Shown piece after piece: positions 17,994 to 36,451 of a stretch of DNA of 64,000 bases; the first letter of the stretch is position 1; each line of letters opens with the position of its first letter. The stretch comes from Succinivibrio dextrinosolvens (GTDB taxonomy: Bacteria; Pseudomonadota; Gammaproteobacteria; Enterobacterales; Succinivibrionaceae). The position numbers and the translations under genes were made by a program. The notes below the pieces were generated by a model. That model saw only the letters and a list, made by a program, of their open reading frames with translations. It was not told the DNA's origin and made no database searches. The stretch spans positions 1,448,747 to 1,512,746 of the forward strand of contig NZ_CP047056.1 in NCBI RefSeq assembly GCF_011065405.1, in the 5' to 3' direction.

Positions 17994-18232
17994 ATAACAC
18001 CAAAATTATATTTAATTTATAAATATTCCTTTCGAGATTATATTCCATTTATATCTAAATTTCATTTATTGGGATTTTTGGGGATCTTATGGGATAAATC
18101 ATCATAAAAGTACTAGATATTAATTAATATAATTGATATTCAGAATTTTATGGGATATTATTGAATAAAAATAATTTCGAATTTAATAATCAAATGACTA
18201 TATAACATTGTATTTTATATTTAGGGGTAATT
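17994..18232. promoter_or_regulatory. Repressor / AlpA divergent switch region
   Basis: AT-rich gap with repeated GGGAT words: TTATGGGATA occurs near 18088 and again near 18150, and TTGGGATTTTTGGGGATC begins at 18069. A similar pair (ATCCCA on the plus strand) recurs at 36251-36266 near the right end, so these could be sites for the repressor or the excisionase. Confidence 0.45.
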
Positions 18233-18430
18233 ATGGGTAATAAAACAGATAAAATCTCAACGTCAGCAATTCAGCTGATTAATGAAAATATCTTTTTAAA
18301 TTCAATTCAAATAATGAAGATCTTTGGAATAACAAGGTCAACATTTGATAAATGGAAAAAAACAAAGGGCTTTCCTGAAGAGCTATATCTAACTAAAAGA
18401 CCAATATGGAAAAAAGAAGAAATATTGTAA
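18233..18430 (+). pseudogene. AlpA-like excisionase/regulator, 3' end cut by IS66
   Basis: Small winged-helix (AlpA/MerR-like) DNA-binding protein, SIQIMKIFGITRSTFDKWKKTKGFP being the helix-turn-helix. Such proteins activate or assist excision of integrative elements. AGGGG precedes the ATG. The present frame ends at 65 aa because the IS66 end supplies a stop. Removing the IS and one copy of GAAATATT restores 19 more codons (NWAESFNKENPLWKQSEAN) and an 84-aa protein. The truncated form keeps the helix-turn-helix and may still work. Confidence 0.78.
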
Positions 18431-20343: not shown

Positions 20344-20412
20344 GAAATATTAAATTGGGCAGAAAGTTTCAATAAAGAAAATCCTTTATGGAAACAGTCA
20401 GAGGCAAACTAA
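20344..20412 (+). pseudogene. Displaced 3' end of the AlpA-like gene
   Basis: After the right IS66 duplication, codons in phase with the interrupted gene read NWAESFNKENPLWKQSEAN and a TAA at 20410-20412. The link is shown by exact excision of one duplication copy. Confidence 0.75.
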
Positions 20413-20473
20413 CAGAAAGGAAAAACTCCCCAATGCCGTCGTCGAAAATAAGCATCAGGGAGCAACAATAACT

Positions 20474-20646
20474 ATGACAATTATAGATAATGAATTAAAA
20501 AATAGTAAGTCAGAATTAAACAATTTAATAACTATAACAGTTCCAAAGTACTCATTTAAACTGATAGACCTGGAATTATCAGGAAGAATTGCAAAAACTT
20601 TACGAAACGCAAAAAAAGAACTTTCCGGACTCAGTGCTGGAAAAAA
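20474..20646 (+). pseudogene. 5' region of orfX, interrupted by IS21-like element
   Basis: An ATG at 20474 after GGGAG opens a frame that runs into the IS21-like element. A second frame, open from 20568, encodes WNYQEELQKLYETQKKN then FPDSVLEK, and joins exactly to the large orfX frame at 24821 when the IS and one AAAAAA copy are removed. The first frame and this one overlap around 20565, so either a frameshift separates start and body, or orfX used a late start such as the TTG at 20589 behind AGGAAG. Which is right cannot be settled here. Confidence 0.55.
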
Positions 20647-20704
20647 TTTGAGTTCATGAACCTCTTGTAAACAAAGTCTTGAACCAAACGTAGCAAAGTC
20701 TTGA

Positions 20705-20874
20705 TACAGTCTTAAACCTCAATCGTGACACAACTGCAAAATTATTAAGTAATCATGCTACAGTTTTAAACCGTACCTTGCGACACCTGTAAATTAACCT
20801 TAATACAGTCGTAAACAGATATTGATACAATTCAAAACAAATCTTATACCATCAGTAAACAAAAACCTGAGACA
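20705..20874. repeat. 22-bp spaced subterminal repeats of IS21-like element 1
   Basis: A degenerate motif close to TTGATACAGTCTTAAACC recurs with its TACA/GACA core at 20705, 20727, 20759, 20782, 20804, 20826, 20848 and 20870, mostly 22 bp apart (two helical turns). IS21 elements carry multiple terminal repeats bound by transposase, and this fits that role. Confidence 0.65.
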
Positions 20875-20890
20875 CTTTTTTTGTCTCAGG
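20860..20890 (-). terminator. Terminator of the IS21-like element 1 operon
   Basis: CCTGAGACA / TGTCTCAGG 9-bp stem; on the minus strand it is followed by TTTTTG, after the coiled-coil gene. Confidence 0.85.
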
Positions 20891-20917
20891 CTTTATAAAT
20901 AAGCTTTTATAACTCAT

Positions 20918-21322
20918 TCAGAGGCGGAAGCCACAGGCTATTAGATTTTTACTCTGAATATCAATTTTCCTTTTTAGTTCGGCATTCTCTTTTTCAATTT
21001 CGTTATTCCTGAGAGTAAGCTCAATCTCCTTTTTCTTTGATTCCAATACCTGCCTGAGGCTGTCATTGTATTTGCTGTTAAGGCTCTGGTAACTTATCTG
21101 CAGATCTTCATTACGGGCCTTGAGATTACATAGTTCCTGCAAATCCTTACCGTTGGCTATCTTTTTCTGCTCATTGATATAGGTACAGAGCATGGATGTG
21201 ATATCGTAGGTAGAAACCTCAGGATCAGCAAGCTCAGTCAGTAGAGCTGGTGTCAGTTCAAGCCCTTTTTTGTAGGTTGACTCTATAATATTTTCCAACG
21301 TTAACGCTCTAAGACTGAACAC
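20918..21322 (-). CDS. IS21-associated coiled-coil protein
   Basis: Protein of 134 aa with a GTG start that shares its G with the istB stop (TAGTG), so translation is coupled. Residues 1-55 look globular (LTPALLTELADPEVSTYDITSMLCTYI); about 60-125 form a charged coiled coil. A homologue occupies the same place in IS21-like element 2 (38784-39200): shared features are the MLCxYI segment, the GK turn and LESKxxEI. Two diverged copies in the same position argue that it is part of the transposon. Function unknown; a partner or length sensor for IstB is a guess. Confidence 0.7.
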   Translation of the reverse strand: MFSLRALTLENIIESTYKKGLELTPALLTELADPEVSTYDITSMLCTYINEQKKIANGKDLQELCNLKARNEDLQISYQSLNSKYNDSLRQVLESKKKEIELTLRNNEIEKENAELKRKIDIQSKNLIACGFRL

Positions 21323-22113
21323 TATTTTGCTCCTCTTATTTCTTCAGGTCTGCCTCTCCAGGAAGCTCCAGTGAGTCTGATTTCAATATCAGAATTCCTG
21401 AATAGTCTATTACAGAAAGCATCACAAATAGGCCCCTGAGTTTTAATAACTTCCTTCATATTGCTCATTCGCAGCTGAGTGGTAATAATGGTTGCTCCCT
21501 CGTTATAGCGGGCATCAACAATCTCATTGAGTTTAGCAACGATATCATCCTCGAGCATACAACCTCCGAAATCATCAATCAGCAAAACATCTGTGCGATG
21601 CAATAATTCGCGAAAACGAATGAAGGAGTCATCAACCTTGGCATTAAGTATGGAGATAAGCTCCATCATTCTGAAATAACGCACGGTATACCCTTTTCTT
21701 ATAGCCTCAATCGCTGCTGCTATTGATAAAGCTGACTTTCCTACCCCTGTGGCTCCTGTGATTACAATGTTAACGCCCTGTTTTATGTAATTGGTTTCAG
21801 CCAGCAGAGCCAGTTTTTCAGGAAGCAATCCTTTAGGCATACTGGATGCTATCTGTGACAGATATATTTTTCGTGGTAACTTTGATTTTCTGTACAGCTT
21901 TTCAAAAGTCTTGGAGAGCTCTACTGCCTTCTGGCTTTCAAGGCATTTCTTGATCCTTTCCTCAAACTTCATTCCGTTAAATATAACTGGATTTGACATC
22001 TGATCTTCGAGCTCTGCTGCAATGCCATCGAGTTTCAAATCTTTAGCCATGGCAATCAGTTCAGACTGCTCGTTAAGTAATACGACTGGAGCATCGGTAT
22101 TAAATGATTCCAT
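21322..22113 (-). CDS. istB: IS21-like AAA+ transposition helper IstB
   Basis: DnaA/DnaC-like ATPase that loads on target DNA and activates IstA. I start at the ATG at 22113, one base after the istA stop, giving 263 aa; the frame is open 16 codons further but overlaps istA. Walker A is GATGVGKSALS, Walker B is VLLIDDFGG, and an ITTQLRMS sensor-1-like segment follows. The C-terminus SWRGRPEEIRG is shared with the decayed copy at 39181. All motifs intact, so the element may be active. Confidence 0.9.
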   Translation of the reverse strand: MESFNTDAPVVLLNEQSELIAMAKDLKLDGIAAELEDQMSNPVIFNGMKFEERIKKCLESQKAVELSKTFEKLYRKSKLPRKIYLSQIASSMPKGLLPEKLALLAETNYIKQGVNIVITGATGVGKSALSIAAAIEAIRKGYTVRYFRMMELISILNAKVDDSFIRFRELLHRTDVLLIDDFGGCMLEDDIVAKLNEIVDARYNEGATIITTQLRMSNMKEVIKTQGPICDAFCNRLFRNSDIEIRLTGASWRGRPEEIRGAK

Positions 22114-22114
22114 T

Positions 22115-23788
22115 TTAGTCCTTAACATACTGATGTGTATATGATTTATCTCCATTAGCATCTCCGAAAAGAGAAATCTGGATACCTATTTCACGGTTTA
22201 CTGGCATTGGTGGCAGTTCATTAGTGCGCTGTACATACATGCTCTTTATAAAAGGAGTATTCCAGGTCTTAGGATCAAGTTGCAGTACCTTTGCGCAGCA
22301 TTCTGATACCAGATTTTTATGTGCACATTTTTCATAAAATGAAATGACTCCTTTACAGCTTCGAAGAGCATTGAATGCTGAGCCGTTTCGTGCCTTTCCC
22401 AGTTCAATTCTGCTTACACAGAAGCGGTACAGATTTTCGTCTCCGAGATTTTTACATTTCTCGAAAAGAGCTTTCTCATCAGGAATATATTCTTTATCAC
22501 TCAGAATTTTCTGGTGAGCTTCAGGGCGATGCTCCATCAGAATAGTTGATCCACCGTCATGGTCTTTCCTTAAATGACGGGCAATCTCCACGCCTTCATG
22601 TTTAATGATTACATAGTCATTGGTTAGATAAACCTCAACCTGCTTCTTGATATACCTGTAATCAACACTGTAAGTATGCCCCTCAATCGTCAGCAGGTAA
22701 CTTCTAGGTACGGTTTTTATAATGGCATTGCCTTCAAATTCAGGAATAGTTGTTATTACTCTTGCTGCAGGCAGCTCATAGTTATGGAAAAGATAGCTGC
22801 GGGTTTTATCAATACTCTTGCGGAAAGGACCTTCATTGATTTCCTTTTCTACAAGCTCCATCAGGTGCTGACTGTGTTCGACTAAAGTCTTTACCTGAGT
22901 AAAGTCTGTTCTGTATTTTCTACACAGTTTCTCTGTTAAATTTACACTGTACTCCACGGCTGATTTGGCCTGAGGGTGATAAGGAGGCGCGGCGTCAATA
23001 CATATGCCAAGGGATGCCATATACTTTTCGAATGCCGGATTGAGAACTACATCCTTGCCTACATGAGAGGTAACCCAGGCTTTAGTGTTATCACAGACGC
23101 AGAATAAAGGAGCACGATTTTTCCAGTGTCTAATGGCATTACCAAAAACTCTGCAGCTTTCAGCTGTACACTGAGAGGTAACAAACTCTGCATACATATA
23201 ATAGCTTGCAGGCCAGACAACAACACAGCAGTTACAGGTCATTACTCCATTGTGGGTAATAACCTTAAAGGGATCACCAGAAAAATCAATTTCAACTTCT
23301 TCGCCATATTTGAAGTCCTGCGCAAAGTAAAAGTCATCAGCGGTGATTAGCTCATCTATTTCCCGCTGCAGTCGTTTATAAAAGTAAACCTTACTGAATG
23401 GCAGTGCACCGTAGCTTGCAGCGATACTAACGTATTCATCAAATACATCCTTAAGCTCCTGGTGTTTTTCAAGCATAACTTTGCCAATTTCCTTAAAGTC
23501 AGGATTAAATCTGCTGTTACGGTTGATAGTATTAGGTTTGGCATTAAGGCTTGGTTTTAAATCCGGGTAAAATTTTTCCAGTAAAACATGATCATTCATC
23601 GCATTGATTACAGCAGGATCTTTTACCCCTAAATCTGCAGCCCTGCTCAGAACTTTTCTGACCGTGTTTGTTGCAACTTCCGCTTTGCGAGCAATTCTAC
23701 GTATTGAGGCCATATGAGTTAGCCCCAAACTGCATATTAGTCTTATGGTTGAACAGGGAAGCTGTCTTTTATCTGAATTTTCGTTCAT
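22115..23788 (-). CDS. istA: IS21-like transposase IstA
   Basis: DDE transposase of 557 aa. A helix-turn-helix at about 20-60 (ASIRRIARKAEVATNTVRKVL) binds the ends. The catalytic core shows acidic residues in VEIDFSGD, VCDNTKAW and AVEYSVNLTE. GAGAGGATG lies just before the ATG. It follows the LPDF accessory gene by 60 bases and is followed by istB after one base. The core matches the copy at 39965 in order and spacing, but the proteins are clearly diverged. Confidence 0.92.
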   Translation of the reverse strand: MNENSDKRQLPCSTIRLICSLGLTHMASIRRIARKAEVATNTVRKVLSRAADLGVKDPAVINAMNDHVLLEKFYPDLKPSLNAKPNTINRNSRFNPDFKEIGKVMLEKHQELKDVFDEYVSIAASYGALPFSKVYFYKRLQREIDELITADDFYFAQDFKYGEEVEIDFSGDPFKVITHNGVMTCNCCVVVWPASYYMYAEFVTSQCTAESCRVFGNAIRHWKNRAPLFCVCDNTKAWVTSHVGKDVVLNPAFEKYMASLGICIDAAPPYHPQAKSAVEYSVNLTEKLCRKYRTDFTQVKTLVEHSQHLMELVEKEINEGPFRKSIDKTRSYLFHNYELPAARVITTIPEFEGNAIIKTVPRSYLLTIEGHTYSVDYRYIKKQVEVYLTNDYVIIKHEGVEIARHLRKDHDGGSTILMEHRPEAHQKILSDKEYIPDEKALFEKCKNLGDENLYRFCVSRIELGKARNGSAFNALRSCKGVISFYEKCAHKNLVSECCAKVLQLDPKTWNTPFIKSMYVQRTNELPPMPVNREIGIQISLFGDANGDKSYTHQYVKD

Positions 23789-23848
23789 AACATCCTCTCA
23801 TTATTTGAAAAAACATCATCATCTGATGACAGAGAGGATTTTATGGGG

Positions 23849-24442
23849 TTAAGGATAACCTCCAATCCAAAGTGAGTCCATAATGTAGGAGATAACTCTA
23901 ATGGGAGAACCTGCCTCTGTTAAAAGAAATTCTTTGCGTACATTTTCAAATCCTTCACAGGGATTCATTCTTAACCTTGTTCTGCATTCAGCCAGATTGT
24001 ATAAGGCTGATTTGACTCTTTTAAGAAATTGTCCAAGATGAATCCTCAGATAACGTGTACGTTTTGGATGATCATACTCTGCACTGATAAGCGCATCTGA
24101 TGCTGCGAGTGGAAGCTCATCAATAACTTCAGCATTCTGTATTTCTCGATTAGTAGCAATTAAAGTTTTGATGGTGTGGCGGCAGAAAGGAATAAGGAAG
24201 TCTGGAAGGATCCGGTGGTAATGGACTTTTCCATCGTAAAACAAGGCGACTTGAGGAATTTTGATAATCTGAGGAATTCCATCAAAGTCGATATAGTGTC
24301 GTTTTCTGTATCTGCCCCCAAAATACTCAGCCTTAAACTCATTTCTTAGATGACTTATACCTGCATCGGTTAAACTGAAACAATATAATCCTGATTTAGG
24401 AGATCTAGTGATCCTGAAATAATTTTGTGGTAAAGTGAGCAT
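23849..24442 (-). CDS. IS21-associated protein with LPDF motif (DUF6431-like)
   Basis: Protein of 197 aa from the ATG at 24442 (frame open 19 codons further, but that stretch crosses a hairpin). The opening MLTLPQNYFRI matches MIILPYKFFRI of the homologue at 42294. The most conserved part is HRILPDFLIPFCRHTIKTLI (near 98-117), reminiscent of DUF6431-type transposon proteins that share an LPD-F-P segment with ISL3 N-termini. No zinc cysteine pairs are evident. It is the first gene of the IS operon; its role is unknown. Confidence 0.65.
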   Translation of the reverse strand: MLTLPQNYFRITRSPKSGLYCFSLTDAGISHLRNEFKAEYFGGRYRKRHYIDFDGIPQIIKIPQVALFYDGKVHYHRILPDFLIPFCRHTIKTLIATNREIQNAEVIDELPLAASDALISAEYDHPKRTRYLRIHLGQFLKRVKSALYNLAECRTRLRMNPCEGFENVRKEFLLTEAGSPIRVISYIMDSLWIGGYP

Positions 24443-24450
24443 GAGTGTTT

Positions 24451-24492
24451 GGTTGGCCTGTCGCGGTGTGGAAATTTGCAGACAGGTCAACC
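24451..24492 (-). other. Conserved hairpin before the LPDF gene (element 1)
   Basis: Stem of 12 bp (11 matched, one mismatch: GGTTGACCTGTC / GACAGGCCAACC on the minus strand) with an 18-nt loop, ending 8 bases before the ATG. Element 2 has a hairpin of the same geometry at 42307-42346 with an unrelated stem and a similar loop. No ribosome-binding site is visible between it and the start. Confidence 0.7.
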
Positions 24493-24820
24493 CCTCCAAG
24501 TATCCTCAATAAAACATCCCTATTTAAATCCCTTTTTTCATAATTTTCAAATAACTCTCAGATTGGTTATTACAGGATTTTTCTCCCAATTTTTCTTAAC
24601 AACTTTTCACACAGGTTCTCTCCCGTTTTTTCTCCAGGTTGCCACCTAGGAAAAAACGAGGATAACCTATGGAAAAGTCTAAAAAATTGAGGGAAAATCC
24701 CCAAAAGGAAAAAAGATACATATATAGAAGTCTTCAAAAGAGGCTGTTAATAATGAAAATGGGAAGAGGAAATGGTGTATCAAGAATAACTTTATAGATG
24801 GTTCAAGATCTTCTTAAAAA

Positions 24821-25804
24821 ATGTGCTCAGAGTATGTTTTGTTATGTGCGAGATTTAGGATACCACCCATCAGTGCTCCTAACCTATATGATATTCCTGT
24901 TGTATTAAGACTTATTTACAAAGGACTCAAAAGTTATAACCTGGACTGTAATAAAACTCAAACCGTAGTACTCGAAACAGGCCAAATAATCAAAAACCTG
25001 TATGGAGTAGATAATGGTTCAGATACTGTATCTAGAATTCATTTGAGACATATCTTTCTTCTAATAAATGAGTTTTTAACAGAAGATAACAAACCAATTC
25101 TTAACTTTAAGTTGAGAAGAAATTCCCCCTGTATTCTAACCATATACCCTGCGTTTATAGTTTTCGCGAAAGCATTTTTAAACAACTGCTCGCAATATAG
25201 CGTAAGACTGTTCTCTTATGCGCAAAAAAAACTAGATCTTTTAAGAAAAAAAGAACGAGCCTATGCGATCTTTCTTGAAAAACTGTATTTTCAAGGAAAA
25301 CTAAGTTTACAAGGAGTAGCATTAAGTTCAAAGAAATTAAACAAAGAATCATCATTTTATTCTTGTAAAACAAGGATAAAGGATATGTTCAATAATCCGA
25401 AAAGCAAACATTTTTTTTCATTTAGTACATTCATAAATAAAGCAGAACAAATGCTAAAAACTCTTCATTATGATGACCTGTTTTTCTATGAATTAGCCGA
25501 TAGAACTATAAAGGAAACCAATAAATTCGGAGAATCTCAGTTATCACAATACATAAGAGCTTCTATAAAAACAGAAGCCCCTCAGAGTGACCTACCTAGT
25601 GAATCACAGCTTCAGCCACAGGATGAAGGAGCATTAGAGATTGAAAATGATGTTATTAAACAATATGAAGAAGTTCCTATAAACGCAGTGGAGCAAAATT
25701 CAAATAATTGCGAATACGTACCTATATCAATTCAATTAACAGCAGTTTGTCCCCCACCTCCTGCAAATTCCTTCATTTTAAAAAGTAACCAGAAAAGAGC
25801 TTAA
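24821..25804 (+). pseudogene. orfX, island core gene of unknown function, 5' end separated by IS21
   Basis: The 327-codon frame beginning at 24821 is the body of a gene whose first part lies before 20646; the apparent ATG is created at the IS junction, and no ribosome-binding site precedes it. The protein is rich in lysine and hydrophobic residues for about 240 aa (predicted helical), then has an acidic, proline-containing tail (PSESQLQPQDEGALE) to the end. It matches no family I recognise. Position between the AlpA-like gene and the integrase, with a 5-base gap to the integrase, suggests a role in excision, replication or regulation. Confidence 0.6.
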
Positions 25805-25809
25805 TTATT

Positions 25810-27129
25810 ATGAAGAAGTTAATTACACATAAAGAATTTATAAAGGCTGTTGAAAGCGCTATCTCACGAAACAAAAAGGCAAGCATTAACTGCGGAGGAA
25901 ACCTATTCGCAGAAATATCTGCAAAGGGGCTATGTACTTTTTATGTAAGAATCAGATCAACAACAGTTGATACAAAGAAAATGCTTGGAAGATATCCTGA
26001 TTTATCATTAAAAGATGCAAGAGAAAAAGCAAACTTAGAATTAAATAAACTAAGAATACAAAAAGAGGAAAAACAGCGACACTCAGACACTCTAACATTC
26101 GGTGCATATTCATCAATGTGGCTATCTTTCTTTAAAGTTGATCCAAAGAGCAACAATAATACACATAAAAACAATAAACGACACGATAATCTCCGTTCAT
26201 CATTAAAAATTTTAGCTGAATTGAATTCAACTCCAATAGATCTTATCAATCCCAAAACGGTTGATAAGGTGCTTAGTAAATCCGATAAACCTGCAGGAGC
26301 AAAAAGAATTGCAATTAAAGCCCTAAATCAATGCCTAAAAAGTGCTGTTGTAGACGGGATCATTGAAAAAAATCCATGTGAAAACATGCTTAATAGCCAA
26401 GGACTTATATCCCAAAAATACAGAAAACCAAAAGTAATTGGTTATGCATGGGTGGAAGCAAAATATTTGAGAGAAAAGTTCTTTGAAAAACTATCAAATG
26501 AACCATATATGCATAAGGTTTTTTATCTATTTGTTGCAATGACAAGCCTAAGAGTTGGTTCTGTAAGTGAATTAAGATGGAATTGGATTGACTACAAGAA
26601 TAAGGCGATCCATATTCCTGCTGAATATATGAAGATGAGTCGAGATTTTTCTATTCCTCTTTCTGATTTTGTTGCGTCCTTATTAAAAAGATGGGAAATA
26701 CAATGTATAAGAAATGAACAAATCAGTCCTTATGTTTTTTTTGCAAAAAGCTCATTACAAAAACCCATCAGAGTAATACAAGTTCAAGATCCAGTTACCA
26801 ATAATACGCAGAAAGAAATAACACTGCATGGATTAAGAAAATCAGCAAGAACGTGGATGGCTCAGATTGGAGTACCAGAAATCATCGCAGAATACGCTCT
26901 ATCTCATGAAGCTAAATCCTCTATGGTTGCAGTTTATAACAAGTATGATTACTTTCAGGAACGTATACCTGTTATGAGGTTATGGAATTACTACATATAC
27001 ACTCAATTACCAGAATCATTTAAAGATTTAATTGAAGATTTACCTTCAGAATATCTTGATAACTGTAAGAAAGAACTTGACGAGCTTAAATCGAAGATTT
27101 CATTCTTTGAAAAAGAGCGTAACTATTAA
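25810..27129 (+). CDS. Tyrosine-type site-specific integrase
   Basis: Phage-type tyrosine recombinase of 439 aa that would insert and excise the island. Residues about 25-100 resemble the DUF4102 arm-binding domain (RIRSTTVDTKKMLGRYPDLSL), followed by a core-binding helical domain. Catalytic residues are R248, K275, H340 and R343 (HGLR), H366 and the nucleophile Y376 (AVYNKYDY). All are intact. A coiled C-terminal tail follows. It overlaps an operon of AlpA-like gene, orfX, integrase and MobC-like gene. It lies 9 kb from either junction, unusual for an integrase. Confidence 0.92.
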   Translation: MKKLITHKEFIKAVESAISRNKKASINCGGNLFAEISAKGLCTFYVRIRSTTVDTKKMLGRYPDLSLKDAREKANLELNKLRIQKEEKQRHSDTLTFGAYSSMWLSFFKVDPKSNNNTHKNNKRHDNLRSSLKILAELNSTPIDLINPKTVDKVLSKSDKPAGAKRIAIKALNQCLKSAVVDGIIEKNPCENMLNSQGLISQKYRKPKVIGYAWVEAKYLREKFFEKLSNEPYMHKVFYLFVAMTSLRVGSVSELRWNWIDYKNKAIHIPAEYMKMSRDFSIPLSDFVASLLKRWEIQCIRNEQISPYVFFAKSSLQKPIRVIQVQDPVTNNTQKEITLHGLRKSARTWMAQIGVPEIIAEYALSHEAKSSMVAVYNKYDYFQERIPVMRLWNYYIYTQLPESFKDLIEDLPSEYLDNCKKELDELKSKISFFEKERNY

Positions 27130-27165
27130 CACAAACAATACAATCAACACATCATAAGAGTATCT

Positions 27166-27783
27166 ATGGATAACATAAAAAAGAAACGTAAGCAGTTATC
27201 TATCAATCTTGGCGAATACCACGACGATTGGATTGCTATTTCAAATCATTTTGGAGTTAAACCAACCTCTTTTGTTGCTGCAATAATAAAAAACACTATT
27301 GATGAAGTTAAGAAACCAAACGAAAAAATTGTTTTAAAAATAGAAGAACTGGCAGAATATATCCAAGATGAAAGAAAAACCAATATCTATTTGAGATTGA
27401 ATCAAGAAGAAACAGCTGCTCTTGAACATTTTGCAGCACACATTGGTCGTTCAAAAACTCAAGCAGTTATATCTATCCTTAGATCCTATCTTGCAAATCA
27501 ACCAAGCTACACTTTAGACGAAGCAGATGCTCTTGAAACATCCAATGAAGAGCTTCGTATGATTGGAGTTAATCTAAATCAGGTGGCTCACAGAGTTAAT
27601 AAGATGGAATTAAATACCTTCTCAAATCATGATGTTGAGGATTTAAAAGAGCTCATGAAACAATTAAATAAAAAAGCAGATACTCTATCTCAAGAAGTAA
27701 AAGAACACACAAAGAAAGTCTGGAATTTACTAAATGCTGGTCGATATAGAGCATCCTTTATAATAAAAGGAGATGAGAAATAA
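27166..27783 (+). CDS. Tandem ribbon-helix-helix, MobC-like mobilization protein
   Basis: Protein of 205 aa. Two ribbon-helix-helix-like units are visible: about 8-50 (LSINLGEYHDDWIAISNHFG) and about 65-110 (IYLRLNQEETAALEHFA, then GRSKTQAVISILRSYL). The stretch MIGVNLNQVAHRVNK (about 137-151) is the hallmark of MobC-type relaxosome accessory proteins, followed by a coiled coil. MobC-type proteins bind oriT and help the relaxase nick. The iteron array begins 5 bases after its stop and an oriT-like site follows at 28499, but the relaxase gene expected downstream is missing. Tandem RHH units could bridge neighbouring iterons. Confidence 0.75.
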   Translation: MDNIKKKRKQLSINLGEYHDDWIAISNHFGVKPTSFVAAIIKNTIDEVKKPNEKIVLKIEELAEYIQDERKTNIYLRLNQEETAALEHFAAHIGRSKTQAVISILRSYLANQPSYTLDEADALETSNEELRMIGVNLNQVAHRVNKMELNTFSNHDVEDLKELMKQLNKKADTLSQEVKEHTKKVWNLLNAGRYRASFIIKGDEK

Positions 27784-27787
27784 TAAA

Positions 27788-28307
27788 GTGATAAATCTCG
27801 GAGACTGCTAAACGGCATATCTATGCGCTTTATGGGCAATAAAGTGATAAATCTCGAAAAAAAGAGAAAGCCTAAGTAAATGTATCTCTTTAATTTAAAA
27901 AGAGATAAAAGTCGGAATCCAAGAAAGGCTTAAATATGCGCTTTGTAATAAAAAGAGATAAAAATCGGAAAAAAGAGAAAGCCTAAGTAAACGTATCTCT
28001 TTAATTTAAAAAGTGATAAATCTCGGAGACTGATAAACGGTATATATATGCGCTTTATTGGCAATAAAGTGATAAATCTCGGAAAAAAGAGAAAGCCTAA
28101 GTAAATGTATCTCTTTAATTAAAAAAGAGATAAAAGTCGGAATCCAAGAAAGGCTTAAATATGCGCTTTGTAATAAAAAGAGATAAAAATCGGAAAAAAG
28201 AGAAAGCCTAAGTAAACGTATCTCTTTAATTTAAAAAGTGATAAATCTCGGAGACTGATAAACAGCATATCTATGCGTTTTATGGGTAATAAAGTGATAA
28301 ATCTCGA
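27788..28307. repeat. Ten-iteron array with a 225-bp higher-order repeat
   Basis: Ten 14-bp iterons (consensus GNGATAAANNTCGR) start at 27788, 27844, 27902, 27955, 28013, 28069, 28127, 28180, 28238 and 28294. Spacings repeat as 56, 58, 53, 58 bp, so every fourth iteron is exactly 225 bp on. Two iteron classes alternate in pairs (GTGATAAATCTCGG and GAGATAAAAGTCGG/GAGATAAAAATCGG). The spacers are also repeated and contain AGAG/CTCT inverted repeats. Likely a protein-bound centromere, origin or relaxosome platform; the adjacent RHH protein is the obvious binder. Confidence 0.85.
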
Positions 28308-28498
28308 AACATATTCAACAATTATTTATCTAACTTATTATGTTATTAACAACATAAACCTGTTTTAACATACTAATTACCAATAAAAAAAGTTTTTTGG
28401 TGGTAAAAAGGTGGTAAAAAGCAGTTAAAAAACATGCAAATAACATGTTAATTACCACTAAAAAGAGGTAAAAAACAGGTATACAACCACTAAAAACT

Positions 28499-28640
28499 GC
28501 AAGGGTCACTTGCGACAAAAAACTTCAGTTTTTTTGTGTTTTCCATAATCAAAATATTTTTATTTTGCCCTCGGAGAGCAGGAGGCAGCTTTAGAGAAAT
28601 GCAGTGCATTTTGCAACAAAGTGCCTATCCTGCCCTAGTA
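28499..28640 (+). other. Origin-of-transfer-like region with RP4-type nick sequence
   Basis: TATCCTGC at 28626-28633 within CCTATCCTGCCC matches the IncP/RP4 nic consensus YATCCTG|Y, with the nick expected between 28632 and 28633. Fifteen bases upstream lies the inverted repeat AAATGCA-G-TGCATTT (28597-28611), where a TraJ/MobC-type protein would bind. A second inverted repeat GCAAG/CTTGC is at 28499-28513. Between the iteron array and here (28308-28498) there are repeated GGTGGTAAAAA and CCACTAAAAA words but no gene. Confidence 0.65.
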
Positions 28641-28667
28641 TTTTTTGAGTAAATTTAACAATAAAAC

Positions 28668-28681
28668 TTGGTCATGACCAA
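28668..28681. promoter_or_regulatory. Palindrome TTGGTCATGACCAA followed by T-run
   Basis: Perfect 14-bp palindrome followed by ATTTTTT-like sequence, downstream of the oriT-like site. It could be a regulator site or a short terminator. The rest of 28641-28905 is AT-rich with a small GC-rich hairpin (GCC..AAGGAGGC) near 28840 and no gene. Confidence 0.4.
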
Positions 28682-28905
28682 TTTTTTAAATTATTAATTC
28701 CAACGTTTTAGGATGAATTATTACAATAAGGATTTTCACATTATTGTTATGAAAATACACTGAACGACATGTTTTTTTATCTTGCTATTTTTTTATAAAA
28801 CAATACGTTATTCAGGATCTTGAAAAAAAATGCCCCCCTTACAAGGAGGCTCCAAAAATCTCGTTATAGAATTCTGTTTCCAAAGTATTTTAGAGGAAAC
28901 TTACT

Positions 28906-29076
28906 ATGAAACTTTTAAATACACCGTCTATTCATCTTTTCGCAATTGAGCTATATGCAAATTCAAAACAGAATTTAAGGGATTATTTTGGTTTTACTCA
29001 TCCAGGAAAAACAAAATATAGGTTGTTCCTTAATCCTGATTCATCTGTCATCCAATTATATTTGTCGCATTTTTAA
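28906..29076 (+). CDS. Small ORF, 56 aa, unknown
   Basis: ATG at 28906 preceded by AGAGGAAAC, a reasonable ribosome-binding site, opening MKLLNTPSIHLFAIELYANS and ending in SVIQLYLSHF. No signal peptide or known motif. Composition is protein-like, but it stands alone between the oriT-like region and a MITE-like repeat, so it might be a remnant. Confidence 0.4.
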   Translation: MKLLNTPSIHLFAIELYANSKQNLRDYFGFTHPGKTKYRLFLNPDSSVIQLYLSHF

Positions 29077-29123
29077 TTAAGGGAAATTTGTTTAGACTCT
29101 TTTACAAGAGCATTTTTTCTTAT

Positions 29124-29234
29124 TTACTCAAGTTTTGCGTTTCGATTTTAACTAAAAATCGTTGTTTAAATGAGGTGCTAGACCGCATCTTTATAACCTT
29201 TATCAGTTAATATTGAACTGCAAAAGTTGAGTAA
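29124..29234. mobile_element. MITE-like 111-bp element related to the IS4-like ends
   Basis: Ends are inverted: TTACTCAAGTTTTGCGTTT on the left and, in reverse complement, TTACTCAACTTTTGCAGTT on the right. The right end (TCAGTTAATATTGAACTGC and on) is nearly the same as the right end of the IS at 16758 (TCAGTTAATATTTAACTGC). No coding capacity. No clear target duplication. Confidence 0.6.
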
Positions 29235-29370
29235 TTTACAGTGACGGTAAATAAATTAACGATAACTTGGATGAATTAACAGTGGCAGTAATATATGCAT
29301 ATATTGAAACTCGGAGTTTTCTATATATAAACTATAAAATCCGAGTTATTCAAAGAAGTGTTCAATTCTT

Positions 29371-29634
29371 CTAGTGGTCGCCGTAATGACTTCCACATTC
29401 AACTATTTCAATAGTATCTTCTATGATTTTAAAGACGATGCGATTTTTATGATCTATTCTTACGCTCCAGAATCCGGCAAGATTTTCTGATAAAGGTTCA
29501 GGCTTACCTATGCATTTGTAGCCATTTCGCTCAATGCTTTTTATAAGGCTGTTGATCTTTTTTAATGTTTTTTTATCTAACTGTTGCCAATTTAGATATT
29601 CTTCCCATGCGTCGTCATGCCACATTAGTCGCAT
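29371..29634 (-). CDS. YoeB-family mRNA interferase toxin
   Basis: Ribosome-dependent endoribonuclease of 87 aa. It follows the E. coli YoeB pattern closely, keeping the catalytic E46 (GKPEP), R65 and H83, and the NLAGFWSVRID core. The last residues YGDH extend beyond the usual HY end. Its ATG overlaps the antitoxin stop (TAATG), so translation is coupled. All key residues are present, so it is likely active when freed. Confidence 0.92.
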   Translation of the reverse strand: MRLMWHDDAWEEYLNWQQLDKKTLKKINSLIKSIERNGYKCIGKPEPLSENLAGFWSVRIDHKNRIVFKIIEDTIEIVECGSHYGDH

Positions 29635-29897
29635 TATAGATCCTCAATTAACTCATGCTCATGAACATTTTTACTTGCTTTTAGATCTGCAATACGTTTC
29701 TCTAGCATCTCAATATGCTTTGGACTATCAAATGGATCTGCTGAAATCTCAAACGGAATTCGTCTTTCATTTCCAACTTTTCTTGCAAACAGTGTAAAGG
29801 CTGTACTTAAAGATAATCCCATTGCAGCACATGCATTTTCCATTTTCTTTTTTATTTCATAATCTAATTTAAAATTTACGTTTACTGTTTGAGCCAT
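29634..29897 (-). CDS. RelB/DinJ-family antitoxin
   Basis: Protein of 87 aa with an N-terminal ribbon-helix-helix (VNVNFKLDYEIKKKMENACAAMGLSLSTAFTLFARK) and a C-terminal toxin-binding tail. It belongs to the RelB/DinJ family rather than the YefM family that usually pairs with YoeB. AGGAG lies before the ATG. It is first in the operon and would autoregulate through the palindrome at 29919. Confidence 0.9.
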   Translation of the reverse strand: MAQTVNVNFKLDYEIKKKMENACAAMGLSLSTAFTLFARKVGNERRIPFEISADPFDSPKHIEMLEKRIADLKASKNVHEHELIEDL

Positions 29898-29918
29898 ATG
29901 AAATCTCCTACAATTTTC

Positions 29919-29938
29919 TTCTATATATGATTATAGAA
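29919..29938. promoter_or_regulatory. Toxin-antitoxin operator palindrome
   Basis: TTCTATA and TATAGAA are inverted repeats separated by 6 bp, 22 bp upstream of the antitoxin start, as expected for RHH autoregulation. Confidence 0.65.
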
Positions 29939-30339
29939 ATAATAAAGAAAAATACAAGAAAGATTCTTTATATCTTCTTAATCTCGGTCTTATCCTCCTT
30001 GATTTCATTGAGGATAACCTTGATGAATAAGACTACGGCCCACCTCGTAACATTGAAGAGAAAGCAGTTGACCACGATGCAATAAACGTGGTTGTTAAGG
30101 CTGGTAAATCTGTTATTGAATAGTCGTTAAATATTAAGTATCACGAGTAGCTTAAATGACAGGTGAAATGATTTATATCTATATCTTTTTCTAAATCTGG
30201 TCTTTTGTATAACTGAGTCATCTTTTTTTATATTATTTTCTGTTTTGTGACGCACGTCATTGAAACGCCCTGGGGGTAGAATGAAAAATGGCCGTCTTAT
30301 ATTTTTCGCAACTTTAATTATTAAAAAATAAGGAAAAAA
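29939..30339. other. Intergenic stretch with a possible gene remnant
   Basis: About 400 bp. An open frame near 30042-30123 reads YGPPRNIEEKAVDHDAINVV and ends in a TAG; its start is lost, so it looks like the tail of a decayed gene that I do not recognise. No promoter for the next gene is obvious. Confidence 0.4.
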
Positions 30340-31800
30340 ATGAACGAAAATGCAGAAGATATTGAGATAGATTTAGTACGACTTTTCAAATATCTTCTTT
30401 CAAAATATAAAGCTCATTTACTTTTAGGTATCATCTTTTCTGTTTTATTGTTTTCTTATAAGTTTTACAAATTTGAATATTCGGACATACCTCTTGAAGA
30501 AATTAACAACCTTTTCACCATTCAGAGGGAAGTAAAGTTACCGAATGGTCAGAAGAAAACAGAAAAAACAAAGGTTAACTACCGTTTATACAAGCAGAAT
30601 TTTCTTGCACAGGAATCAGAATACAATACAGCTATAAAAAATATTGAATATCAGAAGCAGAAGCTTAATTCCGTAATAGCTAATTTGAGTAACGAAGAAG
30701 ATATTCAGAAAGAGTACATGAAGAATTCTATTCTTTATAACATGCAGGATCCGGCAGCGTATCTTGAATGTGACTTTTTGTTCATTGTGTCTAACAAATA
30801 TCCAAACAGCAATTCATTGTCTAACTATAAAAACAATTCAGATAATACAAAATCACTAACTGATGAAGGGATGTTAACATCACCTGTTGTGGATTTTGCA
30901 AAAGAACTAATCTCTAGTAAAGATTTAATTGAGAAAGTCTCAAACAGACTTAATATTCCTGTAAAAAATTCTAAGAAACAGATTACAGAACTTACAGAGT
31001 TTAGAAAAATTACAAATAACACTTTTGTAATTGTAGCTAAGGGTAATAGTCCAGAAGTAATAGCTTTCCTGAAAGAACATATTAAAGATTTCTATCAGAG
31101 GCTAAATGAAGCTTTCAAGAGTGAATATCAGATTTCCTACTCTCAGACCTACTATGGCTCAATTAACAGTTCATTTATTGAAAAACTGAAAATAAGAGAA
31201 GAAGACAAATTAAATTCAATAATCAATAAGATTGAAAACAGCAAGAATCAAATTAGTAATATTCAGGACCCCGCTCCTATCGAAGAAAAACTTATTGATC
31301 TAGGCACATATAAAATCATCACTTATATAAAATTCGCCATAATAGGTTTTGCAGCAGGAATTTTTGCTGGACTTTCTCTGTTCGGCTGTAAATATCTATT
31401 CGATGGAAAACTAAAGGACGAAACCTATCTACAAAAACTGTTCTCAATAAAGATTCTTGCCTGTATTCATGATGGATCTTTCATAGAGAAAAACCACAAC
31501 GAAGAAAAACGTCTCAGTCAGTCAATTGAGTACTTATGCAAGGATAAAACGAAGATTTCCATCGTAAGCACACTTGATTTAGATGAAATCTATGAGCCCG
31601 TTAAAGTCATTGAGAACACGTTCTATAACACCAATACCGAAGTAATTGTTAAAAAACCTTTTGAAATTAAGGAAATAACAAGTAGTGATGCAGTACTCAT
31701 CATTGAAAAACTTGATAGTACAGACATAAAAGCAGCTGTTTCAGAAATCAATTTTCTAAAGGAAATTGAATGCAAAATCATCGGTATTGCATATGCGTAA
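30340..31800 (+). CDS. Wzz-like polysaccharide co-polymerase (chain-length determinant)
   Basis: Inner-membrane protein of 486 aa with transmembrane helices at about 28-46 and 330-352 enclosing a large periplasmic, coiled-coil-rich domain, the Wzz/PCP layout. The N-terminus EIDLVRLFKYLLSKYK is typical. A cytoplasmic domain of about 130 aa follows the second helix, as in PCP-2 proteins that fuse or pair with a tyrosine kinase, but no Walker motif is seen, so it is kinase-dead or a divergent regulatory part. AAGGAA precedes the ATG. No other polysaccharide gene is nearby. Confidence 0.65.
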   Translation: MNENAEDIEIDLVRLFKYLLSKYKAHLLLGIIFSVLLFSYKFYKFEYSDIPLEEINNLFTIQREVKLPNGQKKTEKTKVNYRLYKQNFLAQESEYNTAIKNIEYQKQKLNSVIANLSNEEDIQKEYMKNSILYNMQDPAAYLECDFLFIVSNKYPNSNSLSNYKNNSDNTKSLTDEGMLTSPVVDFAKELISSKDLIEKVSNRLNIPVKNSKKQITELTEFRKITNNTFVIVAKGNSPEVIAFLKEHIKDFYQRLNEAFKSEYQISYSQTYYGSINSSFIEKLKIREEDKLNSIINKIENSKNQISNIQDPAPIEEKLIDLGTYKIITYIKFAIIGFAAGIFAGLSLFGCKYLFDGKLKDETYLQKLFSIKILACIHDGSFIEKNHNEEKRLSQSIEYLCKDKTKISIVSTLDLDEIYEPVKVIENTFYNTNTEVIVKKPFEIKEITSSDAVLIIEKLDSTDIKAAVSEINFLKEIECKIIGIAYA

Positions 31801-31830
31801 GATTTAACTTTTGAGGTATATGAAAACATT

Positions 31831-31998
31831 ATGAAAAAAAGAAAACTAACAATCTGTGTATTTATATATCTTATTGCAGTTTTATTTTTGGGGAGTTCAC
31901 TCTTTGTTTACGGATGCGACAGTTCATCCGACTATAAAACAATAAAAATGAAACATGGAGATATTCCCCTGCCAAAGCCAATCAAACAACAGAAATAA
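31831..31998 (+). CDS. Small putative lipoprotein, 55 aa
   Basis: Frame of 55 codons beginning 30 bases after the Wzz-like gene. A basic start (MKKRK), a hydrophobic stretch, and VYGC with the cysteine at residue 29 suggest a lipoprotein signal. The mature part is about 27 residues, ending in a proline/lysine-rich tail. GAGG lies about 15 bases upstream, so the site is suboptimal. Probably made with the Wzz-like protein; function unknown. Confidence 0.55.
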   Translation: MKKRKLTICVFIYLIAVLFLGSSLFVYGCDSSSDYKTIKMKHGDIPLPKPIKQQK

Positions 31999-32051
31999 AC
32001 ATATTTGGTTGAGATTTAATCTCATTTTTTATTTAGGTATGAGGAAATATT

Positions 32052-35000
32052 ATGATTAAACAAACAAGAAATGCTATGCATATGCTTATTGAAGCTTATA
32101 AAGCTGTATATAAACAAGCTATGTCAAAAGGCACCGGAGTTAAATATGCTGGAGGTAATTTACTTAAGTTACTATTAATTTTATCTTCAGTAGGCTGTGC
32201 TCATGCTTCAACTTCTATAAACTTACCATTTGGAAACAGAAGTTTATACGACATAACTCCAACTATTTATGAAAACCCTTTAACAAACAATTCTGATGTT
32301 AATGCAGTAGGTAATCTTGGACATGAAATGGCATGGATGCTTTTGGAGGCATACAAACATACCGACAGCAACAAGAACGAATTAAAAGAGGATATAGAAA
32401 GTGAAGGCGGATCTTACCAGAATGCTGTTAATCTTTTAAATCAGGCTAATTTTCAAAATGTAACAACTCTTGATTTGGCTAACACTGCAGAAATAACCTT
32501 AAATAGTGTTACAGTTAATGGAGGTCTAGTTTTCCTGGAGACAGGATTTGGTAATAGTGAGAATCAATCGCTAACCATAAACGGAGATACTAATGTTAAA
32601 CAAGGCTTTTTATACCTCGGAACCAGAACAGATGATAATGCTCCTGCCTCTACTGTTACAGCTACAGGCCTTGTCACCTACAGTGGCATATCAACAGGTG
32701 AAATAAAAGGAAAGACTAATCTAAATGGAGGTCTTTTAATTGAGGATTATGCTAGTGTGGATCTAGGAAGTGGTTCTGATATCACAGGTAATATTAAAAT
32801 TACTTCAAAAGGAACTACAGATTCAAATGCTTTTTCTAATTTAGAAAAACAGTACGGAGTCTGGGGTAAATCTATTAGTGATTTCTTAAAAGTTGAAAGT
32901 GAAACAACCGGCGGATTGAATGTTGGACATGGTTCATCAAAAATTACAGGTGAAGTTGATATTGATGGAGGAAAACTCACTGTCGTTGATTTCGCAGATG
33001 TTTCTTCAGACAAATCTCCTGCACCTGAATTAACCATCACAAAAAACGTTAAAGTATCCAATGCAGGTGAAATCCTAGTCATGGGTACAAAAGACGCAAA
33101 TGGAAATAATTATCCAGGAAAACTGACAATAAATCAAAATCTTACTGTATCTGGTAATGGCTCAAAAGTAACAGTAGGAAGCCTAAAGGATTCAAGCGCT
33201 CAAGGAATACTTATAGTAGAAGGGGATACAATTGTCGATGATAAAGGTAGTATTGTAGTTGGACAAAACGGAATTGCGAAATTACAAGGAAGTGTAACGT
33301 TAGATGGCGCAAATGCTATTGTTACCAATGGTAATGGTAGCGTAGAAATGAAAACCCCAACAATCAAAAACTTTACAGCAAATGATGCCTCTACTAGTTA
33401 TACTCTGGACGGCGAAGCAAACATAACAGCTACCGACATGACATCGAATGAAGTGACATTTAAAGAAGTCGCAAACGTAGAATCATCCAAATTTGCAACA
33501 ACTACCTTAATATTCGAAGGAAAATCAAATCTTAATAAGACTACAGTTACAACAAATACACTAACATTCAAAGATGAAGCTAAAGTTTATGACTCAACAA
33601 TTCAAGCGTCAAAAGTTAACCTATCAAGTCTATTAAAACTTGATCCTTCAACTTTGACCACATCTTCACTTCTATTTAACAACAATGGTAAGTTAGCAAT
33701 CTTAACTGGTTCTGCAACTTATGTAGGAAACAGTAGTGATTTTGAGTCAACAGGTTCTGTTAATGGCAAGGCATTATTATCATTAGCATCAGGAATTTCT
33801 CTAAAGAATACCAATGCAATTTATCTACATGGAACAAAGACAAATGATCAGGTAGATGATATTACCGCCAATACAGTTACCTTAGATGAAGGTTCTACTC
33901 TTGAACTATACGGAGGCGCATTCACCAGCGGTGCAGCTATTACCTTCTCAGATGGAAATGGTACTTTTACTGTTAAGGACGGATCAAAGATTGTTCTTAA
34001 AGGGAAACAGGCCTCAGGAAAGAATGTTGTAGTAACAGGTGCTTCAACAATTGACACACCAGAAGATTGGAAGACTTATTTGTCATCTGACAATATCTTA
34101 TATCAGATTAATGATGCTGCCCCTACTAACGACGGTAGTTATGTTGTTGATTTAGCAATATCCTCAACTGGTGTAGCTGCTGTGAGTGGAGGCATTAGTC
34201 CAAGCTTATCAAGAGCTATTGTTAACCAGGCAAACGGTACTGGTACAGATTCAACCAAAAATAATGGTCTTGGCATCATGACTCAAATGATCGAGAAAAT
34301 CGGTACCGGTTCATCATCTGAAATCAGCAGATTCCGTGACGAGGCAAACTCTGTAACAGGCTTCATCTTCGGCGGTGTTCCTCTGTTAAATGAGCTTGTT
34401 GCTCAGATTGCACACGACAATGTTGAACAGCACAATGGCTTTACAACTACAGGAGCAAACCACGCAGCTGTTAAGGGAACCAATGCAACTGTCTGGGCAA
34501 TGCCATTCTACAAGCACTCTAAGTCAGACTCCTTCAAGATTGAAGGTTCAACCTATGGTCTGAAGGCTAAGATTTATGGCTTAAGTATGGGTACTGATTT
34601 TGAAGTTGCTGACGGCTTCCGTCTAGGCTTTGATGGTATCGTTGGTCATGCTAAGACTGACAGTAAAGGCAGCTTAGATCCTTCTGAGGATGATGCTTCA
34701 TTCTGGGGTCTTGGTACCTATGGTTCATACAACTATGAGAACCTGAAGGTTATGGCAGATATTGGTTATACAGCAATGAATACCGATACTGACCTTCACA
34801 CCTCATATGGTACTCTGACAGCAAAGAACACCAAGTCATATACATTTACAACAGGTGTTAACGCCAAGTACAACTTTGCTCTAACCTATGCTGACGTTGC
34901 TCCTCATGTTGGTATTCGTTACAACCACGCTAACATCGATAAGTACAAGGTTAAGAGACAGGGTGATGTAATGTTGACTGGTGACAGCATCAGCCAGAAC

Positions 35001-35321
35001 TACTTCCAGTTCCCTATCGGTGTAGAGGTTTCAAAACAGTTTGTCTGTGGCGAATGGAACTTAAAGCCAATGTTTGATTTAACAGCAACAGTCAACGCTG
35101 GAGATAAAGATCTTGATGCTAAGACAACACTTACTGGCTTTGACAACAAGTACGGAGAAGTTTCAACTAATGCTGAAGTGTTAGACTCTGTAAGTATTCG
35201 TGGAAGTCTTGGTTTAGAAGCTAAATATGGTGCTTTAGGACTTGGTGTAGGATACTCCTTCACTGGTTCAGAGAACGTAAAGGATCACGTATTTGCGGCT
35301 GGTGTTAACTACACCTTCTAA
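32052..35321 (+). CDS. Type V autotransporter, surface-exposed passenger
   Basis: Protein of 1089 aa. A long signal region (1-52, cleavage likely after AHA) resembles the extended signals of autotransporters. The passenger (about 55-780) is rich in Ser, Thr, Asn and Gly with repeated beta-strand turns (LTITKNVKVSNAGEI type), a beta-helix pattern. The last 275 aa form a beta-barrel ending in NYTF with a terminal aromatic residue for BAM recognition. No protease motif is seen; adhesion is the likely role. Base composition shifts to a less AT-rich style from about 34250, where the barrel starts. Confidence 0.85.
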   Translation: MIKQTRNAMHMLIEAYKAVYKQAMSKGTGVKYAGGNLLKLLLILSSVGCAHASTSINLPFGNRSLYDITPTIYENPLTNNSDVNAVGNLGHEMAWMLLEAYKHTDSNKNELKEDIESEGGSYQNAVNLLNQANFQNVTTLDLANTAEITLNSVTVNGGLVFLETGFGNSENQSLTINGDTNVKQGFLYLGTRTDDNAPASTVTATGLVTYSGISTGEIKGKTNLNGGLLIEDYASVDLGSGSDITGNIKITSKGTTDSNAFSNLEKQYGVWGKSISDFLKVESETTGGLNVGHGSSKITGEVDIDGGKLTVVDFADVSSDKSPAPELTITKNVKVSNAGEILVMGTKDANGNNYPGKLTINQNLTVSGNGSKVTVGSLKDSSAQGILIVEGDTIVDDKGSIVVGQNGIAKLQGSVTLDGANAIVTNGNGSVEMKTPTIKNFTANDASTSYTLDGEANITATDMTSNEVTFKEVANVESSKFATTTLIFEGKSNLNKTTVTTNTLTFKDEAKVYDSTIQASKVNLSSLLKLDPSTLTTSSLLFNNNGKLAILTGSATYVGNSSDFESTGSVNGKALLSLASGISLKNTNAIYLHGTKTNDQVDDITANTVTLDEGSTLELYGGAFTSGAAITFSDGNGTFTVKDGSKIVLKGKQASGKNVVVTGASTIDTPEDWKTYLSSDNILYQINDAAPTNDGSYVVDLAISSTGVAAVSGGISPSLSRAIVNQANGTGTDSTKNNGLGIMTQMIEKIGTGSSSEISRFRDEANSVTGFIFGGVPLLNELVAQIAHDNVEQHNGFTTTGANHAAVKGTNATVWAMPFYKHSKSDSFKIEGSTYGLKAKIYGLSMGTDFEVADGFRLGFDGIVGHAKTDSKGSLDPSEDDASFWGLGTYGSYNYENLKVMADIGYTAMNTDTDLHTSYGTLTAKNTKSYTFTTGVNAKYNFALTYADVAPHVGIRYNHANIDKYKVKRQGDVMLTGDSISQNYFQFPIGVEVSKQFVCGEWNLKPMFDLTATVNAGDKDLDAKTTLTGFDNKYGEVSTNAEVLDSVSIRGSLGLEAKYGALGLGVGYSFTGSENVKDHVFAAGVNYTF

Positions 35322-36071
35322 TCCATGCAACTATCGCAATCTCAAAGCATATAATAAATTTATGCTTTAGATAGCATGAAAACCTCCAGTCAGATTTGAT
35401 TCTGACTGGAGTAAATCAAATTTATTCCCTGCCATTTATTTATCTATTGTAAATCTTTCTGATTGCAGATTATTCCTTATTAGATTTATATGAGATTTTT
35501 ATTTATTTTCCAACACAAATCATTAGTAGATATTGGTAGCAATTAATAAATTCAATTCTGACAGCTAGAGCAATACACAGAGTTCGCAGCGTCAATTTTT
35601 ACATTTACGCCTCGTCCTTTATAAAACATTCATCAGTAAAAGCTTAAAAGAATACGCTTTTATTCACGTCTAAAGAATTTAAAAGATCAAGAAGATTTTG
35701 AGTTGTTATCCTGTTATTTAGAAAAAAAAATAATGAATATTATTCTTGTCTAATTCTCATATTTTATATATGCATCGTTTTTATTCTATACATAAGATCT
35801 TGTGTTCAGCCACAAACAAATATCCATATAAGAAGATCTGCATTTCATAAAGTTGGCAAGTTATTCTGTTATGCATACGCTAAGAGATTAGATAAATTCT
35901 TATGTAATAAAGTATAGGTTTCGCTGTATGCCTTACGTCATTTTTGAATGTATATTTTTAGTTTGATCAAAGATTGTGTATGGATAGATAAAGGTAACCA
36001 AAGAAATTCTCTACACTGTCGAGAATTTTTGGAATACAACAAAGTGTTTATATTCCTCATGCAAAGCTTAG

Positions 36072-36094
36072 TTTTCCACAACGAGTTTTCCACA
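36072..36094. repeat. Two DnaA-box-like repeats near attR
   Basis: TTTTCCACA at 36072-36080 and 36086-36094, 14 bp apart, one mismatch from the DnaA consensus. They mirror the DnaA box near attL. Confidence 0.4.
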
Positions 36095-36192
36095 AAAAAG
36101 TAACTCTATATAAATAAAAGATCTCTATAAGATCTCTATAGGCTTTTTTATTTTTTAATTTTGAAAAAATAGAAGGAAAATAAGACAAGAAT

Positions 36193-36240
36193 CAATTCAC
36201 CATTTTTTATTCACCTTTTATGGTGAATAGAAGGTGATCC
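36193..36240. promoter_or_regulatory. Putative integrase arm sites, right end
   Basis: TTCACC at 36196 and 36210 plus inverted copies GGTGAA at 36222 and GGTGAT at 36233. The block CAATTCACCAT is shared with the left end (16832). Confidence 0.5.
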
Positions 36241-36362
36241 TTGGTAAAAAATCCCAAAAAATCCCATTTAGTATTTTTTATAAAAATAAATTAAATTACA
36301 ATAAGTTAAATAAGGATTTAATGGTATTTTGTTAACTTTGAAAACGTTGAAAAAAGGGATTT

Positions 36363-36376
36363 TGTGGTGCCGAAGA
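36363..36376. repeat. Right attachment site (attR core) in tRNA-Leu
   Basis: TGTGGTGCCGAAGA, identical to 16770-16783, overlapping the 3' acceptor end of the tRNA gene. The tRNA is left intact. Confidence 0.82.
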
Positions 36377-36451
36377 TGGGACTCGAACCCATACGCTTTT
36401 AAGGGCGGCGGATTTTGAATCCGCTGCGTCTACCAATTCCGCCACTTCGGC
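36365..36451 (-). tRNA. tRNA-Leu (anticodon CAA)
   Basis: An 87-nt gene on the minus strand with a 7-bp acceptor stem (GCCGAAG / CTTCGGC), a long variable arm typical of tRNA-Leu, the anticodon loop TTCAAAA reading CAA, a T-arm with GGTTCGAGTCC and an encoded CCA. Its 3' end serves as the island integration site and is preserved. Confidence 0.97.

Follow-up and report, generated by a model that had tools for sequence, protein, structure and literature searches.

The region from 28499 to about 28686 of the 64,000-nucleotide stretch of DNA analysed (the window) is very probably the oriT of a relaxase-less IME; by way of this site and its own MobC, the element would engage the relaxase and T4SS that a PromA-like ICE brings into the cell. 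The 19.6-kb island that carries it (16770-36376) is inserted in tRNA-Leu(CAA) and is probably a hitch-hiker, with both enzyme and channel coming from a conjugative element that visits the cell. Three such relaxase-less islands were found in two species: the window island, a second island in the same genome (3.47 Mb, one contig) and an island of Succinivibrio dextrinosolvens DSM 3072, which belongs to the same genus.

The transfer origin and its type

The nic consensus, the inverted repeat and the neighbouring MobC-like gene described in a first-pass annotation were all present where it had placed them, and the functional oriT region extended beyond position 28640, at which that annotation had ended (Table 1). 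The nic octamer, TATCCTGC, occupies 28626-28633, and the nic-proximal repeat ends 14 nt 5' of it. The window contains 12 copies of the octamer consensus YATCCTGY (6.8 expected) and two instances of an octamer with a 6-bp inverted repeat at most 40 nt upstream (0.55 expected in first-order simulations); the motif is therefore not beyond chance and would by itself be weak evidence, the decisive evidence being homology and conservation. The oriT region (197 bp) was 80% identical to a second site in the same genome, within the second island, and 75% identical (over ~200 bp) to the DSM 3072 island. The 14-mer GCCTATCCTGCMCT occurred 12 times in 57 family genomes, 10 of these occurrences being beside mobC genes, and its reversed control was absent (0 occurrences); matches in G015 and G054, both inside ordinary coding sequence, were attributed to chance. 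The ten aligned loci had in common GCCTATCCTGC-CT, the nic-proximal repeat, the outer stem CAGG-GGC...GCC-TAT-CCTG and, farther upstream, as many as three hairpins. With arms marked by hand, pairing in hairpins 1 and 2 was 1.00 and 0.88 for own arms and 0.37 and 0.50 for arms swapped between loci; both hairpins retain pairing despite sequence change. The ssDNA fold of the region was better than those of all 200 shuffles (z -3.67). A search of plasmid DNA with the oriT gave no match spanning 80% of the query. The 16-mer AAAGTGCCTATCCTGC had five matches in viral contigs, none with oriT context, which were taken as chance, and a search of viral contigs with the MobC and Rep-like proteins found none.

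The region had been called an RP4-type MOBP oriT, of which the MOBP assignment was supported and the RP4 assignment was not: the hairpins, the palindrome 3' of nic and the MobC family are those of IncU RA3 and the PromA plasmids. Because of the match to the RA3 oriT and the MobC family, we class the window oriT as probably IncU/PromA-type, not specifically RP4-type. The RA3 (IncU) oriT shares ATCCTGCCCTAG with the window oriT and reads GCGAATCCTGCCCTAG compared with GCCTATCCTGCCCTAG in the window (the RA3 nic strand being that of our own alignment), and pIPO2 (PromA) has the nic core GCCTATCCTGCAATAG and an identical TTGGTCATGACCAA palindrome 3' of nic. The RP4 (IncP) oriT, in contrast, shares only the short nic consensus with the window, whose accessory gene is an IncU/PromA-family mobC. 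As in that group, the window oriT has a conserved nic core with an inverted repeat just 5' of it. Its position differs. The oriT of RA3 and of the PromA plasmids (pIPO2, pSB102, and pTer331) is found in the promoter of mobC, upstream of that gene and in opposed orientation, with partition genes on one side and transfer genes on the other, whereas the window oriT is 3' of mobC; in the related islands, the second oriT alone has an upstream position relative to a mobC. In the plasmids, moreover, the relaxase gene comes immediately after mobC and a full T4SS is present, whereas the window island has neither. TTGGTCATGACCAA was also considered as an attachment site and rejected, the att site being the tRNA-Leu 3' end. 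In RA3, mobilization is lost when nic is mutated, and without mobC transfer falls about 1000-fold (PMC4175270).

The first-pass call of a MobC-like gene was borne out, the product belonging to a relaxosome accessory family. Its PF05713 score was 34.8 bits (cut-off, 23.2), and its motif, LRMIGVNLNQVAHRVN, fits the published LxxugxNlNQiaxxLn of the RA3/PromA family (PMC4175270). RA3 MobC was 27% identical to it, and PromA MobCs were matched by tblastn. The structure model contained two ribbon-helix-helix (RHH) units (mean pLDDT, 64), so that both the predicted RHH fold and the NlNQ motif of the family were present; a PDB profile search gave weak matches to PcfF and EndoAI (E about 0.001), and the best matches in a fold search, also weak, were F-plasmid relaxosome chains (E 0.009 and up). 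The role of MobC as an adaptor is uncertain, because in RA3 the binding of MobC to its operator is not strictly required for mobilization (PMC4175270).

Table 1. Features of the oriT region and of the island that carries it (window positions)
Feature	Position	Strand	Evidence or remark
attL, 14-bp core TGTGGTGCCGAAGA	16770-16783		Identical to 36363-36376
HTH/S24-peptidase-type repressor	17106-17993	-	47% identical to S. dextrinosolvens island repressor (Pfam HTH_3, Peptidase_S24)
AlpA/excisionase-like gene, 5' part	18233-18427	+	83% to intact homologue
IS66-type insertion sequence within excisionase-like gene	18428-20343	+	Pfam DDE_Tnp_IS66, 1.7e-40; 8-bp target duplication GAAATATT
AlpA/excisionase-like gene, 3' part	20344-20409	+	Alignment to intact homologue
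Rep-like gene (putative function), 5' part	20474-20641	+	58% to intact homologue
IS21-like insertion in Rep-like gene (IstA/IstB and a further ORF)	20642-24861	-	Mu-transposase C-terminal domain (P0008); 8-bp duplication TCAGTGCT
Rep-like gene, 3' part	24862-25804	+	58% to intact homologue from residue 49
Tyrosine integrase, open	25810-27129	+	Pfam Phage_integrase, 9.3e-20, Arm-DNA-bind_3; 75% to homologue
MobC, relaxosome accessory protein, two predicted ribbon-helix-helix units	27166-27783	+	Pfam MobC, 2.4e-8
225-bp direct repeats, 2.3 copies, possibly iterons	27785-28309		None in two related islands
oriT hairpin 1, GCAAG-GGTCA-CTTGC	28499-28513	+	Stem retained, sequence altered; 8 loci examined
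oriT hairpin 2, then conserved GTG	28516-28536	+	Alignment and stem comparison across loci
oriT hairpin 3	28550-28567	+	Stem comparison across loci
Outer imperfect stem CAGGAGGC ... GCCTATCCTG, reaching nic	28579-28632	+	ssDNA fold z -3.67; conserved in alignment
Nic-proximal inverted repeat AAATGCA-G-TGCATTT, putative relaxase recognition	28597-28611	+	Repeat and spacing as in Succinivibrio ICE oriT
Nic core, GCCTATCCTG then CCCTAG, predicted cut 28632/28633	28623-28638	+	GCCTATCCTGC-CT invariant in 10 loci
Palindrome TTGGTCATGACCAA, putative accessory-protein site	28668-28681		Palindrome 3' of nic in 10/10 loci
YoeB-family toxin, cargo/maintenance	29371-29634	-	Pfam YoeB_toxin, 9.1e-30
RelB-family antitoxin	29634-29897	-	Pfam RelB, 5.7e-11
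Cargo protein, 486 aa, Wzz/chain-length-like by eye	30340-31800	+	No Pfam match
Cargo autotransporter, 1089 aa	32052-35321	+	Pfam Autotransporter, 1.5e-28
attR at 3' end of tRNA-Leu(CAA) (36365-36451, minus strand)	36363-36376		14-bp repeat of attL

The island and its relatives

Site-specific integration was evident from the att repeats and from an empty site in S. dextrinosolvens and G032, where the flanking nitroreductase gene, TSCPD-like gene, tRNA-Leu and lptG adjoin one another. In the genome of the window, a ~2-kb transposase stretch lies between the TSCPD-like gene and attL, outside the island. The excision module of the window copy is not intact, the integrase gene being open and the excisionase-like gene split by IS66; it is intact in the related islands, and the intact excisionase-like homologue matched a PHROG excisionase family (1.7e-5). 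Since the excisionase-like and Rep-like genes are both split by IS elements, the window copy is probably impaired and perhaps immobile; the intact genes of the second island might act in trans for it. An ORF starting at 24821 (P0001) was rejected as a complete gene, as it is the 3' part of the IS-split Rep-like gene and its start is not native. The intact Rep-like homologue had no Pfam, PHROG or plasmid match, its PDB matches were weak and unrelated, and its AlphaFold model was of poor quality (pLDDT 37). A ~75-bp sequence at 36070-36140, ~250 bp inside the tRNA-side end, was 86-87% conserved in all three islands (also at L004 3949-4020 and L021 17400-17476) and may contain integrase arm sites.

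The second island of the genome uses tRNA-Leu(CAG). Each of the related islands has an additional oriT of greater divergence (L021 9150-9383 and L004 19259-19500) upstream of its first mobC, so that each carries a pair of oriT sites and two types of MobC; mobC-a adjoins the upstream oriT, and mobC-b is on the side of the downstream oriT. We tentatively raise the possibility, itself rather doubtful, that the island family uses exchangeable MobC-oriT pairs as keys for different helper families, of which the window island would keep the mobC-b key only. The 225-bp repeats of the window island, built of AAAGTGATAAATCTCGG / GAGATAAAAGTCGG units, occur in that island only. It had been proposed that such an iteron array may have replaced the relaxase gene; this proposal found no support, because the related islands, which are free of the array, also have no relaxase. 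In the second island, a DUF1016-type nuclease (L004 13943-14968) matched the PADLOC candidate defence family PDC-S02 (E 2e-122), and polysaccharide-type cargo was also present. Further elements with a common tRNA-Leu att core are in tandem with the related islands (L021 17718-20594; L004 and L005 joined, 24778-35941).

Source of the relaxase and alternative explanations

Searches of the island yielded no MOBP relaxase, and the earlier statement that none is present in the island or window was confirmed and extended to the whole 3.47-Mb contig, in which no match to PF03432, PF03389 or a PromA-type relaxase profile was found (the last search having no positive control). The PF03432 search found a relaxase in 12 of the 57 family genomes, including relaxases adjoining the same oriT type. 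These searches covered the single-contig genome record; a plasmid outside the record would escape notice. The classes covered were MOBP and MobA/MobL; MOBF, MOBH, MOBV and MOBT relaxases are not expected to cut a MOBP nic. The absence of a detectable MOBP relaxase from both island and contig supports the view that one would be required in trans. Our annotation of the window likewise agreed that it contains no conjugation gene. Outside the window, the genome has a VirB-type T4SS at 562.6-572.7 kb, in which no coupling protein was detected; VirB4 was identified by PF03135 and its neighbours were read by eye, and the cluster adjoins tRNA-Ser and an integrase gene. The genome as a whole yielded neither a PF02534 coupling protein nor a helper element.

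Candidate helpers were present elsewhere in the genus. Succinivibrio G033 and G035 contain a ~35-kb integrated ICE with a matching oriT-mobC-relaxase module, VirB1-VirB11, VirD4 and an integrase (VirB and VirD4 names being our reading of ORFs and gene order). The oriT of this ICE was identical to that of the window at 33 of 40 positions on the nic side, with the same repeat and spacing. The exact helper was not seen, because the full ~200-bp oriT matched other islands only, the known ICE being close on the ~40-nt nic side only. Whether relatives carry a conserved relaxase at this position, which the first-pass annotation had considered damaging to its reading, has a divided answer: conjugative ICEs do, with the oriT upstream of mobC-relaxase, but no member of the island's own family does. 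Such a distribution, with relaxases in ICEs and not in islands, is what one would expect if the islands are hitch-hikers and the ICEs their potential helpers.

From these observations we infer nicking, contact between MobC and the relaxase, transfer and the identity of the helper, in the following cycle. The integrase and its excisionase-like partner would excise the island from tRNA-Leu, and the island's MobC would bind its own oriT at the hairpins, the palindrome 3' of nic, or both. A MOBP relaxase encoded by a PromA/IncU-like ICE or plasmid in the same cell would then recognise the nic core and the repeat beside it, both of them matching the helper's own oriT, and cleave the + strand at 28632/28633. 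The 5' end would exit first through the helper's VirD4/VirB channel, with the cargo side leading and the integrase gene and mobC last, and the island would re-integrate into a tRNA-Leu gene of the recipient.

The two IS insertions that split the excisionase-like and Rep-like genes of the window copy, and a genome in which no helper was detected, would also fit a decayed remnant, in which an ICE or mobilizable element lost its relaxase and left oriT and mobC as functionless relics. We consider this unlikely, as the relaxase-less layout is common to three islands in two species and the oriT stems were retained while their sequence diverged. In the related pair, moreover, the integrase (dN/dS 0.035) and ORF244 were under purifying selection, and so were the mobC genes (dN/dS 0.14 and 0.23), which, these islands being intact, argues against mere decay. 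It is considerably less probable that one of the island family's own products, such as the Rep-like protein, the integrase or ORF244, is an unconventional relaxase: the window oriT is homologous to sites adjoining canonical MOBP relaxases, ORF244 is not in the window island and resembles a repressor, and the integrase has ordinary integrase domains, although neither ORF244 nor the Rep-like protein belongs to a Pfam family and SGI1 has unusual mobilization genes of its own adjoining its oriT (PMC6414798). We give very little credence to a MobC-controlled regulatory or operator region in place of an oriT: RA3 MobC does autoregulate via a palindrome adjoining oriT (PMC4175270), but the window region is ~700 bp downstream of mobC, outside its promoter, and the nic core, not the palindrome alone, is invariant.

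Relation to known mobilization strategies

An oriT of a relaxase-less island that, together with its MobC, would engage a foreign relaxase conforms to a strategy already known: recruitment by an oriT and a relaxosome accessory factor is listed for IMEs (PMC5704250), and 'iOriT' is in current use as a name for relaxase-less IMEs (PMC11389934). For the IncU/PromA (MOBP, MPF_T) version, a limited search of the open-access literature found no earlier account. The island would be an integrated relaxase-less hitch-hiker on an IncU/PromA module in a gut/rumen genus whose mobile elements appear little described. Relaxase-based surveys miss such islands; the 14-bp core with an adjoining mobC was a specific signature here (10 of 12 matches in 57 genomes) and allows a systematic search. 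The covarying hairpins of the ten loci form a defined set for studying oriT recognition by RHH accessory proteins.

Among known elements, MGIVchHai6 and MGIVmi1 are, like the window island, relaxase-less and encode a relaxosome accessory factor (MobI), and are mobilised by IncA/C plasmids (PMC5704250); they differ in using the MobI/MobH IncA/C system and MPF_F, whereas the window island would use MobC/MOBP and MPF_T of the PromA/IncU type. MGIVflInd1-type islands are also relaxase-less, with an oriT related to that of their helpers, the SXT ICEs (PMC5704250), but encode no conjugation protein, whereas the present islands have one or two MobC genes. In the staphylococcal oriT-mimic plasmids of the pWBG749 family, the RHH accessory protein SmpO determines the oriT used by the helper relaxase (PMC8136818), although these are plasmids of Firmicutes with an unrelated relaxosome.
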